Source: Cellvibrio mixtus subsp. mixtus J3-8
GTDB taxonomy: Bacteria > Pseudomonadota > Gammaproteobacteria > Pseudomonadales > Cellvibrionaceae
Assembly: GCF_000766945.1 (NCBI RefSeq)
Contig: NZ_ALBT01000079.1
Coordinates: forward strand, 1-63,318
DNA length: 63,318 nt
Direction of reading: 5' to 3'
Shown one piece after another: positions 36,395 to 38,921 of the stretch. The notes beneath the pieces are model-generated. The model did not search any database, was not told the DNA's origin, and saw only the letters and a list, made by a program, of their open reading frames with translations. The position numbers and the translations under genes were made by a program. Every line of letters starts with the position of its first letter. The stretch's first letter is position 1.

Positions 36395-37132
36395 ATGCTT
36401 AAAAATCTGATTGCTGTGGCAATTTTAGTTGCAGCTCCAGTCTTACAGGCGCAGGTACGGGTTGTTGAGTCTTCACCTCAGGGCTTAGGCTCTGGGGTGG
36501 CTCAGCCTGGTTTGCATGCATCTGCCGAGTCTGATGTATATTCCCAAATTCGTGCACTGCAGGAAGAAATTGCAATTTTGCGTGGTCTTCTTGAAGAGCA
36601 AAACCACCAGTTAAAGCAATTGAAACAATTGCAACTGGATAATTATATGGATCTTGATCGTCGGATATCGGGTGGCGGTGCTTCTGTACCAACAACTACT
36701 CGTGACGAGCCTTCCAAACCAACCAAGCCTTCAATTGAATCCAATTTGACTATCCCTGATAGCGCCAGTGAAGCTGACGTTTACAAGGCAGCCTATGACT
36801 TGCTAAATCAGAAAGATTTTGACGGTGCAGTTGCAGCATTTAAAGATCATTTAAATCGTTTTCCCAATGGCAACTTTGCTAGCAATAGTCATTATTGGTT
36901 GGGCAAGGTTGCAATGCTGAAAAAGGATTATCCGCAGGCGAGAACCTGGTTTACTGAATTAATTGCGAATTTCCCTGATGCCCCGAAAGTACCAGATGCC
37001 CAACTTGATTTAGGGAAGGTTTATTTTTTAACAGGCGAAAAAGCGAAGGCAAAATCCTTACTAACAGAAGTGGCGACGGGCGGTAGTGACGCAGCTCGAT
37101 TGGCACAAAAATTTTTGACTGATAATTTTTAA
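36395..37132 (+). CDS. cpoB: cell division coordinator CpoB (YbgF)
   Basis: CpoB coordinates outer-membrane constriction and peptidoglycan synthesis during division. The 245-residue protein has a signal peptide (about 1-19, ends LQA), a trimerising coiled coil (about 45-80, QIRALQEEIAILRGLLEEQNHQLKQLKQLQ), a linker and C-terminal TPR repeats (about 125-245). It ends the tol-pal operon. In Pseudomonas queE and queC follow; here the next genes are on a different theme. Confidence 0.95.
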   Translation: MLKNLIAVAILVAAPVLQAQVRVVESSPQGLGSGVAQPGLHASAESDVYSQIRALQEEIAILRGLLEEQNHQLKQLKQLQLDNYMDLDRRISGGGASVPTTTRDEPSKPTKPSIESNLTIPDSASEADVYKAAYDLLNQKDFDGAVAAFKDHLNRFPNGNFASNSHYWLGKVAMLKKDYPQARTWFTELIANFPDAPKVPDAQLDLGKVYFLTGEKAKAKSLLTEVATGGSDAARLAQKFLTDNF

Positions 37133-37143
37133 TTTAATTATTC

Positions 37144-37176
37144 GCTAAAAAAGAAAGGGGCTTTATACAAAGCCCC
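37144..37176 (-). terminator. rho-independent terminator of the CsrB-like RNA
   Basis: A perfect eight-pair stem (37157-37164 with 37169-37176, loop of four) is followed on the minus strand by TTTCTTTTTT. On the plus strand it lies 25 bases after the cpoB stop and could also end that operon, though with no T-run. Confidence 0.85.
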
Positions 37177-37490
37177 GTAGCGATTCCATGAATGGATAAC
37201 AGCCATTTCCTTTTAGCCTGGCATCCTGCCGAAACCTGATAATTTCCTTCCAAGTCCTTTTTAATAGTTCCTACGATATTTCCCTATCGTTAATCTGGTT
37301 TCATTCCTTCCAACCACCTTGAATCTGTTCCTTGACAATACCCTAGCTCCTTTTCCTCCTTGCCCAGCTGCTATAACTCCTGTAATTCTCCCTGATTGCT
37401 CCTGCGCCATCCTGGCAAACTTAATAATTCCAATTACGCTTTCCTTGCATGCTTACCGTTTCCTTCAGTACCTTATTCATCCTTGATGTG
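37145..37490 (-). ncRNA. CsrB/RsmZ-like small RNA (CsrA/RsmA sponge candidate)
   Basis: Counting by eye, GGA occurs 22 times on the minus strand between 37480 and 37185, a spacing near 13 bases, against about five expected by chance. Many are in AGGA contexts preferred by CsrA/RsmA (CAGGATG, CAGGAGC, AAGGAAA, AAGGAGG, TAGGAAC). On the plus strand the motif TCC starts at 37185, 37208, 37224, 37245, 37249, 37255, 37269, 37281, 37305, 37309, 37329, 37348, 37354, 37357, 37378, 37389, 37400, 37410, 37429, 37442, 37461 and 37480. The transcript would end at a GGGGCTTT/AAAGCCCC hairpin and U-run, and begin near 37487 downstream of a -10 element and a GacA-type box. This matches the CsrB/RsmX/Y/Z layout; E. 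coli CsrB has a similar number of motifs and length. No coding frame explains the pattern. Confidence 0.85.
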
Positions 37491-37493
37491 ATC

Positions 37494-37499
37494 ATTATC
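37494..37499 (-). promoter_or_regulatory. -10 element of the CsrB-like RNA
   Basis: On the minus strand GATAAT, five of six matches to TATAAT, places a start site near 37487. No good -35 is seen at the right distance, as in activator-dependent promoters. Confidence 0.5.
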
Positions 37500-37543
37500 A
37501 AGAAAATTGAGTTAGAGCGATAGTCGCCAATTTCGCTTTCGCT

Positions 37544-37561
37544 TGTAGGAAATTGACTACA
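37544..37561 (-). promoter_or_regulatory. GacA/UvrY-type binding box
   Basis: On the minus strand the 18-mer TGTAGTCAATTTCCTACA resembles the published GacA upstream activating sequence TGTAAG-N6-CTTACA, keeping both TGTA/TACA ends, the spacing and the central AT. Its centre is about 65 bases before the predicted start of the CsrB-like RNA. It is flanked by a further inverted repeat CTTTCGC (37536-37542) and GCGAAAG (37578-37584). Confidence 0.65.
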
Positions 37562-37593: not shown

Positions 37594-37664
37594 TAGAAAC
37601 TGATTGGATTCTAATGATGATCCCTATATCGGTGATAAATAGAATATTCAAGAGGCAAATACAG

Positions 37665-38921
37665 ATGCGATTCCTGTTAAAGATGTCACCTTATTGGTTT
37701 GCTATAGGGCTTGGGATTTTCTTAAGCAACCCTGCTATGGCTGCGGAAAATAATGAGCAGCTAGCGTATAGGCTCGATTATGTTGTCACCCTCGTGCCTG
37801 AAAAGTCTGGTGCCGTAGTAAAAATAAAAGTCGATAAAGGACAATTACTCCATAAGTTCTCTTTTAGTAATGAGAGAAATATATATTCAGATTTGCATGC
37901 GAATGGAAAATTAACTACTAATGGTAAAAGGATTGAATGGGAGTTGCCTTCCGGAGAGGCAACTTTGTCGTACTTTGTTTTATTAACAAATGAGCGGTCA
38001 TCTGGAAAATTTGACTCCAGGGTTACTGATAAATGGGCATTGTTTCGTGGTGATGATTTAATTCCTGCTGTTCATACTTACGAAGTCCCAAATGCTTATT
38101 CGAATGCAACCTTAACTTTCAATCTGCCAAAGAATTGGAAGAGTGTTGAGACAGGTTGGCAGCGGAAAAGTGGAAATGTTTTTTCTATTGATAATCCTGA
38201 GCGCAGATTTGATCGCCCCACAGGATGGATGATTGCAGGCAATATCGGAACTCGTCGTGCGACAGTTAAAAAAACGGGAATTGCAATTAGTGCTCCTTCT
38301 GGTGAAGGTATGCGTCGGATGGATGCACTCACGTTTTTTAATTTTGTTTGGCCTGAGTTACATAAAGCGTTTGAAAAAACGCCACAAAAACTATTGGTCG
38401 TAGGTGCGGGAGATCCAATGTGGCGAGGTGGTCTTTCAGCATCAAATTCTTTATTTCTACATTCGGATCGGCCTTTGGTAAGCGAAAATGGTACTAGTCC
38501 GTTACTGCATGAATTGACGCATATGGTTACACGTATTAGCGGTAAAGTAACTGAAACAGCAAATGATGATTGGATTGCGGAAGGCCTTGCTGAGTTCTAC
38601 TCATTTGAATTGTTATACCGTGCTGATGGAATGACTAAAGCTCGCCGTACTAAAATAATTAGTGGCCTTTCCAAGTGGGGAGGTGAAGTCGAGCATTTGC
38701 GCAAAACCAAATCGACAGGACCTATTACTGCGCGCGCAGTTGTGCTGCTTGATGCGTTAGATAAAGAAATTCGCAAGCGTAGTAATAATAAATACAGCAT
38801 TGATGATGTAACGCGCGAGTTAATGACGCACCGTAAAGTTTCTCTTGAGGATTTAACCCAGGCAACACAAAAGTTGATTGGCCCAAAGGTTGAAGCACTC
38901 AATTCACCTTTATTGAAGTAA
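37665..38921 (+). CDS. exported HExxH metallopeptidase-like protein
   Basis: The ATG at 37665 (MRFLLKMSPYWF) has a Shine-Dalgarno AAGAGG nine bases upstream and a signal peptide (ending PAMAAE). The 418-residue protein has an N-terminal beta-rich region, then a gluzincin-type zinc site: His282-Glu283 and His286 in LLHELTHMVTR, with Glu306 in WIAEGLAEFY as third ligand, as in M1-family and related (Peptidase_MA-like) enzymes. The GAMEN-type exopeptidase motif of true M1 aminopeptidases is not seen, so the specificity is open. It is divergent from the CsrB-like RNA; base composition is more AT-rich than average. Confidence 0.75.
   Translation: MRFLLKMSPYWFAIGLGIFLSNPAMAAENNEQLAYRLDYVVTLVPEKSGAVVKIKVDKGQLLHKFSFSNERNIYSDLHANGKLTTNGKRIEWELPSGEATLSYFVLLTNERSSGKFDSRVTDKWALFRGDDLIPAVHTYEVPNAYSNATLTFNLPKNWKSVETGWQRKSGNVFSIDNPERRFDRPTGWMIAGNIGTRRATVKKTGIAISAPSGEGMRRMDALTFFNFVWPELHKAFEKTPQKLLVVGAGDPMWRGGLSASNSLFLHSDRPLVSENGTSPLLHELTHMVTRISGKVTETANDDWIAEGLAEFYSFELLYRADGMTKARRTKIISGLSKWGGEVEHLRKTKSTGPITARAVVLLDALDKEIRKRSNNKYSIDDVTRELMTHRKVSLEDLTQATQKLIGPKVEALNSPLLK

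Follow-up and report, generated by a model that had tools for sequence, protein, structure and literature searches.

The window, a stretch of 63,318 nucleotides from a Cellvibrio genome, carries on its plus strand a cpoB/ybgF gene (36395..37132; TIGR02795, 93.3 bits against a cut-off of 90.1) that forms the end of the tol-pal genes. Convergent to it on the minus strand, at 37147..37487, lies a putative CsrA-sequestering small RNA of about 341 nt with 22 GGA motifs, proposed from its GGA count, conservation and accessibility and referred to below as RNA1. The earlier note had placed this element after the tol-pal operon, and cpoB is its neighbour. On the other side, an open reading frame of 435 aa taken from the ORF list (37614..38921, plus strand) runs divergently. 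It is the neighbour in 13 of the 14 RNA1 loci of Cellvibrio, being absent from the flank of L026 in the remaining one. Searches with NCBIfam and Pfam gave no match for this ORF; its HELTH sequence resembles the HExxH motif of zinc peptidases.

On the minus strand, positions 37490-37146 contain 22 GGA, 16 of them as AGGA, and a single TCC. One thousand dinucleotide shuffles of 37146-37490 averaged 11.7 GGA with a maximum of 19, and one thousand mononucleotide shuffles averaged 10.0 with a maximum of 18, so that GGA/ANGGA motifs occur beyond chance, as in sRNAs known to sequester CsrA/RsmA. Over both strands of the window, all 300-base stretches averaged 3.6 to 3.8 GGA, and the best one outside RNA1 had 12. 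The count of 22 GGA, many as AGGA, given in the earlier note was thereby reproduced and exceeds both shuffle maxima; its length of about 300 bases also fits, because all 22 motifs fall within the 300 bases running downwards from 37484. The GC hairpin with a U-run that it had described at the end corresponds to a terminator-like hairpin found by a hairpin scan at 37157..37176 (minus strand), with 8 pairs, 5 of them G-C, followed by TTTCTTTTTT and a U-rich tail reaching 37147. Shuffles predict 0.7 terminator-like sites per 801 bases scanned around RNA1. The stem is preserved in relatives, with substitutions on both sides, in the consensus fold of 14 RNA1 rows. Read on the plus strand, the hairpin has no T-run after it, and the terminator therefore acts for the minus strand. 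RNA1 thus ends in an intrinsic terminator, as CsrA/RsmA-sequestering sRNAs do.

Upstream of RNA1, genome and family pattern searches located a predicted GacA-type box, the 18-bp inverted repeat TGTAGTCAATTTCCTACA (37544..37561, minus strand). The published GacA box, as given in excerpts of two papers, is TGTAAG-N6-CTTACA (PMC8523701, PMC4682653); TGTAGTCAATTTCCTACA is like it in length and dyad and differs at 3 of the 12 fixed positions. The GacA/UvrY box that accompanies sponge sRNAs is therefore present at RNA1 as a variant. The RNA1 and RNA2 alignments (RNA2 is a sibling described below) revealed a second promoter element, GCGACTAT, 16 bp past the box (37520..37527, minus strand), which is exact in 7 of the 14 RNA1 rows and carries 1 or 2 differences in the other 7; its GCGACT is invariant in all 13 RNA2 rows. 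In the 14-row RNA1 consensus fold, GCGACTAT and the TAGTC of the box form an inverted repeat, and the element also occurs upstream of sibling RNAs. A presumed -10-like hexamer, GATAAT, was read from the sequence at 37494..37499 (minus strand), and its AATA/ATAAT portion is well conserved in both alignments. From this hexamer, the 5' end of RNA1 would lie near 37487. A sigma-70 promoter scan called none on the minus strand at RNA1.

The 18-mer TGTAGTCAATTTCCTACA, spacer included, has two identical copies in the genome, each upstream of a GGA-rich RNA. A search of 120 family genomes for the full box consensus with at most 1 mismatch gave 38 places in 25 genomes, 19 of the 21 Cellvibrio among them, as compared with 3 places for a reversed control, and 33 of these 38 boxes have at least 10 GGA in the stretch 30-330 nt past the box. 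The five boxes that GGA-rich sequence does not follow are at L043 (1 GGA), L047 (5), L059 (4), L069 (4) and the second box of L058 (5). Looser searches of the own genome did not separate box from control: the arm pattern TGTAG-N8-CTACA gave 2 places, and its reversed control likewise 2; at up to 3 mismatches, both consensus and control gave 6. We therefore discarded these counts as evidence for box specificity, and what stands apart from its control is the full box with no more than 1 mismatch. Among the six consensus places at up to 3 mismatches, those on C17, C6 and at C10:14304 precede GGA-rich RNAs, and those at C1:971320, C1:1256466 and C10:114235 do not. The box at C1:971320 (L092), with 2 mismatches, is situated shortly upstream of a gene that looks comEA-like by eye, and a direct target there is possible. 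Exact 18-mers at L047:1501 (G012) and L069:1531 (G014) are likewise not followed by GGA-rich sequence, and downstream of the L047 box is a gene judged lipoprotein-like by eye. At L058/L073 (G009 C1:564840-564880), two oppositely oriented boxes stand 5 bp apart, and one alone faces a GGA-rich RNA.

Folding was assessed with a maximum pairing distance of 60 nt and with 40 GGA-preserving shuffles per RNA. The GGA motifs of RNA1 have a mean unpaired probability of 0.723 as compared with 0.580 in the shuffles, none of which reached the real value; 17 of the 22 are more than half unpaired with this limit and 14 without it. The motifs are thus mostly open on average in predicted folds, and their location in loops or single strands, which the earlier note had asked to be checked, agrees with that in sponge sRNAs. 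RNA2 and RNA3 gave 0.646 (shuffles, 0.483) and 0.765 (0.491), and E. coli CsrB showed a stronger excess than RNA1, at 0.815 (0.583). RNA4 had no excess in accessibility (0.498 against 0.441, with 13 of 40 shuffles reaching the real value). As controls, ten GGA-rich stretches elsewhere in the window were folded; two were nearly as open (0 and 1 of 40 shuffles reached them), and eight were not. Over the 14 RNA1 rows, 42 of 278 GGA lie in hairpin loops, a modest excess over 300 shuffles (mean 29.4, sd 5.1, maximum 41); RNA2 showed no such excess (28 of 169, against 28.4). A hairpin search identified three local hairpins on the minus strand with the motif in the loop, namely GCC-AGGAT-GGC at 37406..37416, GGC-AGGAT-GCC at 37220..37230 and ACGATAGGGAAATATCGT at 37273..37290. 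The RNA1 alignment contains counterparts of the second one that change on both sides, TCAGC-AGGAN-GCTGA in 6 relatives and TCAAC-AGGAA-GTTGA in G008. Fold energy and consensus structure were rejected as support: the MFE fold of whole RNA1 does not exceed shuffles in stability (z 0.04), and, apart from the terminator, the RNAalifold consensus of the 14 rows contains only a pairing that involves promoter DNA. Promoter columns were mixed into the consensus fold of RNA2 too.

A GGA-rich RNA with a box (at most 2 mismatches) convergent to cpoB was found in 14 of 21 Cellvibrio genomes. In G015, a GGA-rich stretch lies between ppnN and cpoB. In six of the 21 genomes (G003, G004, G005, G006, G009 and G020), both box and GGA cluster are absent beside cpoB, a gene found in 117 of the 120 family genomes. 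At L023 of G004, a run of AAGCAGT units occupies the place 3' of cpoB where RNA1 is missing. The 14 RNA1 rows carry 13-26 GGA per orthologue at drifting positions, with a mean column identity of 54% and many indels. The GGA trimers of RNA1 are nonetheless retained more than other trimers, at 0.325 of relatives against 0.144 (P 0.0008), which bears out the conservation that the earlier note had proposed to check; for RNA2 the values are 0.742 and 0.509 (P 0.0036). Both P values are optimistic because the sequences are related.

In the covariance search suggested in the earlier note, the CsrB model of Rfam 15 (RF00018) matched RNA1 only weakly (20.2 bits, far below its gathering score of 71; E 0.0015 in a search of 601 bases), and none of the Rsm families matched at E 10 or better; the four matches at that threshold were CsrB, BjrC68, sR5 and SMAD5-AS1_2. 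The CsrB model was also rejected as a finder of such RNAs, as it matched 6 of 57 relatives at E 1 or better, none of them above the cut-off, and gave no match in the own genome under the stricter filters used in that scan. Scans of 7 and 18 loci with Rfam yielded nothing at gathering score; a relative of RNA3 in G006 reached 37.3 bits with CsrB. In an order-level relative (G042 C77:71053-71498; L002/L008), the CsrB model gave two matches that overlap, of 55.3 and 52 bits and both short of the gathering score, and the box TATGGTCAATGTCTCACA stands upstream of them.

Besides RNA1, the genome contains a second and a third RNA and a weaker fourth candidate; RNA1 to RNA4 have 22, 11, 10 and 6 GGA, respectively. 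RNA2 (about 212 nt, C6:54286-54498) lies directly after ppnN and has the identical 18-mer box at C6:54212. The box of RNA3 (about 164 nt), at C10:14304, has 3 mismatches; RNA3 resembles loci in G006 and G019. The RNA4 candidate (around C6:220991-220807) was matched by the RNA2 model at 31 bits (E 0.0025); it has GCGACTAT and, of the box, the right half, and its end resembles a terminator. RNA1 may be the main such RNA, as the earlier note had claimed, in that it leads in GGA content, but the genome carries three or four of them. For the 5' domain of RNA2, a covariance model was built (R1, 106 positions), which with its 4 pairs is nearly a sequence profile. At E 0.01 or better, R1 matched in 53 of 120 family genomes, including 20 of the 21 Cellvibrio; 19 of these 20 have strong matches (at least 86 bits), and G012 was matched only at its own RNA1. 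Further R1 matches like that of RNA4 occur in 18 Cellvibrio genomes, and the 20 loci examined, from 17 of the 18 genomes with the G011 locus left out, may be of more than one kind. The single-contig genome G018 has RNA1, RNA2 and a weaker RNA4-type candidate.

Several genomes that lack the cpoB copy have a longer further RNA. In G003, G006 and G009 it contains 17, 18 and 14 GGA ahead of a terminator, and either of the two further-RNA loci in G006 and in G009 is possibly the counterpart. G005 has a further RNA with 18 GGA in 300 nt, for which a terminator search found none. The further RNA is not lengthened in G020 (3 GGA) and G004 (7 GGA), which also lack the cpoB copy. A shift of sponge capacity between siblings where the cpoB copy is missing is a lead only.

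Five genomes (G015, G082, G098, G065 and G111) carry ppnN and cpoB as a convergent pair with GGA-rich sequence in between; in Cellvibrio, RNA1 is found at cpoB and RNA2 at ppnN. The RNA2 model matched RNA1 of G012, G018, G002 and G001 at 65, 56, 43 and 34 bits, and RNA1 of the own genome at 17.4 bits (E 0.078). The simplest reading of these sequences is that one ancestral ppnN-RNA-cpoB locus was duplicated and then split, giving RNA1 and RNA2. The E. coli csrB gene, located between yqcC and syd, is also two genes from ppnN. An order-level search of 105 genomes found ppnN in 74, among them the own genome, and about 700 bases downstream were taken from 60 of the other 73. On the sense strand, 2 of the 60 reached 11 GGA in 250 nt (G023, of the same family, with 16, and G197 with 11), and one more had 10; on the antisense strand of these roughly 700 bases, none of the 60 did. 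With 2 of 60 being GGA-rich there, the ppnN link looks family-level and the nearness in E. coli looks like chance; orthology with E. coli csrB via ppnN was therefore rejected. More broadly, Cellvibrionaceae might have a CsrA-sponge family of their own that is invisible to Rfam, with 3 or 4 members per Cellvibrio genome, a shared promoter (the variant GacA box and GCGACTAT) and a shared 5' domain; it would descend from the ancestral ppnN-RNA-cpoB locus, and capacity would have shifted between siblings, hence the lengthened other copy in several genomes without the cpoB copy. We hold this combined picture as tentative, at somewhat less than even odds.

The partner genes of a Gac/Csr pathway were found in the genome. 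The csrA gene, whose presence the earlier note had made a point to check, gave one match (86.9 bits, cut-off 27); its product has 63 residues, and it adjoins a gene that appears aspartokinase-like by eye. A GacA homologue scored 274.4 bits, below the NCBIfam cut-off of 280, and is encoded between genes that look murB-like and uvrC-like by eye. A GacS/BarA-like kinase candidate scored 742.8 bits, below its cut-off of 890. The csrA, gacA and gacS set that goes with sponge sRNAs is thus present, with csrA above its cut-off and the two homologues below theirs.

The CsrB/RsmZ-type sponge reading put forward in the earlier note is well supported by the sequence features that computation shows: GGA excess, conservation and accessibility, the box with the GGA-rich sequence after it at other loci, the terminator, csrA, the gacA homologue and the gacS candidate. 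We estimate a probability of about 0.9 that RNA1 is a CsrA-sequestering small RNA, driven by GacA and one of a sibling set. It would work like CsrB/RsmZ, yet by score it is outside the Rfam CsrB family, and it is very probably Gac-controlled. In the mechanism that we infer, a GacS-like kinase would activate GacA, and phosphorylated GacA would bind the box at 37544-37561, from which RNA1 would be transcribed from the minus strand as an RNA of about 341 nt. Its exposed GGA motifs would bind CsrA dimers and titrate CsrA off its mRNA targets, with physiological effects that, as the earlier note had proposed, may extend to secreted enzymes and motility, and RNA1 would act jointly with two, perhaps three, other RNAs of the same genome.

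RNA1 could also be a CsrA sponge outside the Gac pathway, its box being bound by another regulator. The 3 of 12 fixed positions at which the box departs from the published one, the further conserved promoter element GCGACTAT and the exact boxes that no sponge follows at L047 and L069 would suit such a regulator, but the length, dyad and placement of the box ahead of CsrA-type RNAs match GacA boxes, and the genome has gacA and gacS homologues. We consider control by another regulator improbable. Still less probable is that the conserved box and spacer belong functionally to the divergent gene at 37614, with the high GGA count following from the purine-rich composition of the spacer. The box is 53 bp upstream of the listed ORF start, and the ORF adjoins RNA1 in 13 of 14 loci; against this, the box is asymmetric and in the same orientation precedes GGA-rich RNAs with other neighbours (ppnN for RNA2), G012 (L026, L068) has RNA1 and box with the ORF missing from the flank examined, and G004 (L023) has the ORF and neither box nor RNA. 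Moreover, the GGA count exceeds that of shuffles of equal composition, and the terminator faces the minus strand. That the region is translated, as a small protein gene or mRNA leader, is hardly credible: one RNA1 frame has an open stretch of 63 codons and a 76-codon TTG ORF overlaps the 5' part, but all three RNA1 frames contain stops, and numerous indels separate the orthologues, whose mean column identity is 54%.

The reading of RNA1 as a Gac-driven sponge can be set beside known systems. By one and the same count, RNA1 has 22 GGA in 341 nt, and E. coli CsrB reaches this number in 369 nt; both have open GGA motifs and a U-run terminator. Excerpts of one study describe an 18-nt inverted repeat upstream of csrB that is bound by UvrY, which RNA1 resembles; it is centred near -183, whereas the RNA1 box is at about -65 from the inferred start (PMC4682653). 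The neighbours also differ, yqcC and syd for csrB and cpoB for RNA1. Rsm RNAs are shorter than RNA1, and RNA1 matches no Rsm family of Rfam at E 10 or better. The RsmX, RsmY and RsmZ RNAs of Pseudomonas are described as GacA-controlled; they sequester RsmA through multiple unpaired GGA, and a palindrome lies upstream of them. RNA1 is like them in its several siblings, multiple unpaired GGA and upstream palindrome (PMC2375449). CsrB and CsrC of Marinomonas mediterranea, according to excerpts, were predicted by layout, with a GacA box and many ANGGA/AGGA, and their expression is under BarA/UvrY homologues (PMC8523701). RNA1 is similar in layout, with a GacA-type box and many AGGA; compared by description, the Marinomonas box is TGTAAG-N6-CTTACA and that of Cellvibrio a variant. 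A duplicated csrB is reported in an excerpt on Vibrio tasmaniensis (PMC6262261), and by description sponge genes were multiplied by duplication there, as they may have been in Cellvibrio, which is another lineage.

On this reading, RNA1 is of a known sponge type and not surprising in kind. Cellvibrio is a model for the breakdown of plant cell walls and plant polysaccharides, which makes the finding useful. A defined sponge set and a promoter signature that finds its members would render Gac/Csr control of Cellvibrio secreted enzymes directly testable. The R1 model of the 5' domain could be the starting point of an RNA family in Cellvibrionaceae; Rfam models gave nothing at threshold in the loci scanned there. 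A 2006 paper reportedly predicted CsrA-regulating RNAs, so that an earlier prediction is possible. Among the open-licence papers listed, judged by title, we found no description of CsrA-sponge RNAs in Cellvibrio; within these limits, the suggestion that RNA1 may be undescribed fits. The parts available of the T. turnerae genome paper mention csrA of C. japonicus and do not name such an RNA gene (PMC2699552), and Cellvibrio is absent from the main text, as far as available, of a machine-learning prediction paper (PMC5568370).

At gathering score, the search of the whole window against Rfam returned a C4 antisense RNA only, at 2906-2990 on the minus strand (RF01695, 61.4 bits, gathering 45). C4 is a phage immunity-type RNA, and a prophage or its remnant is therefore probably located at that end of the window.
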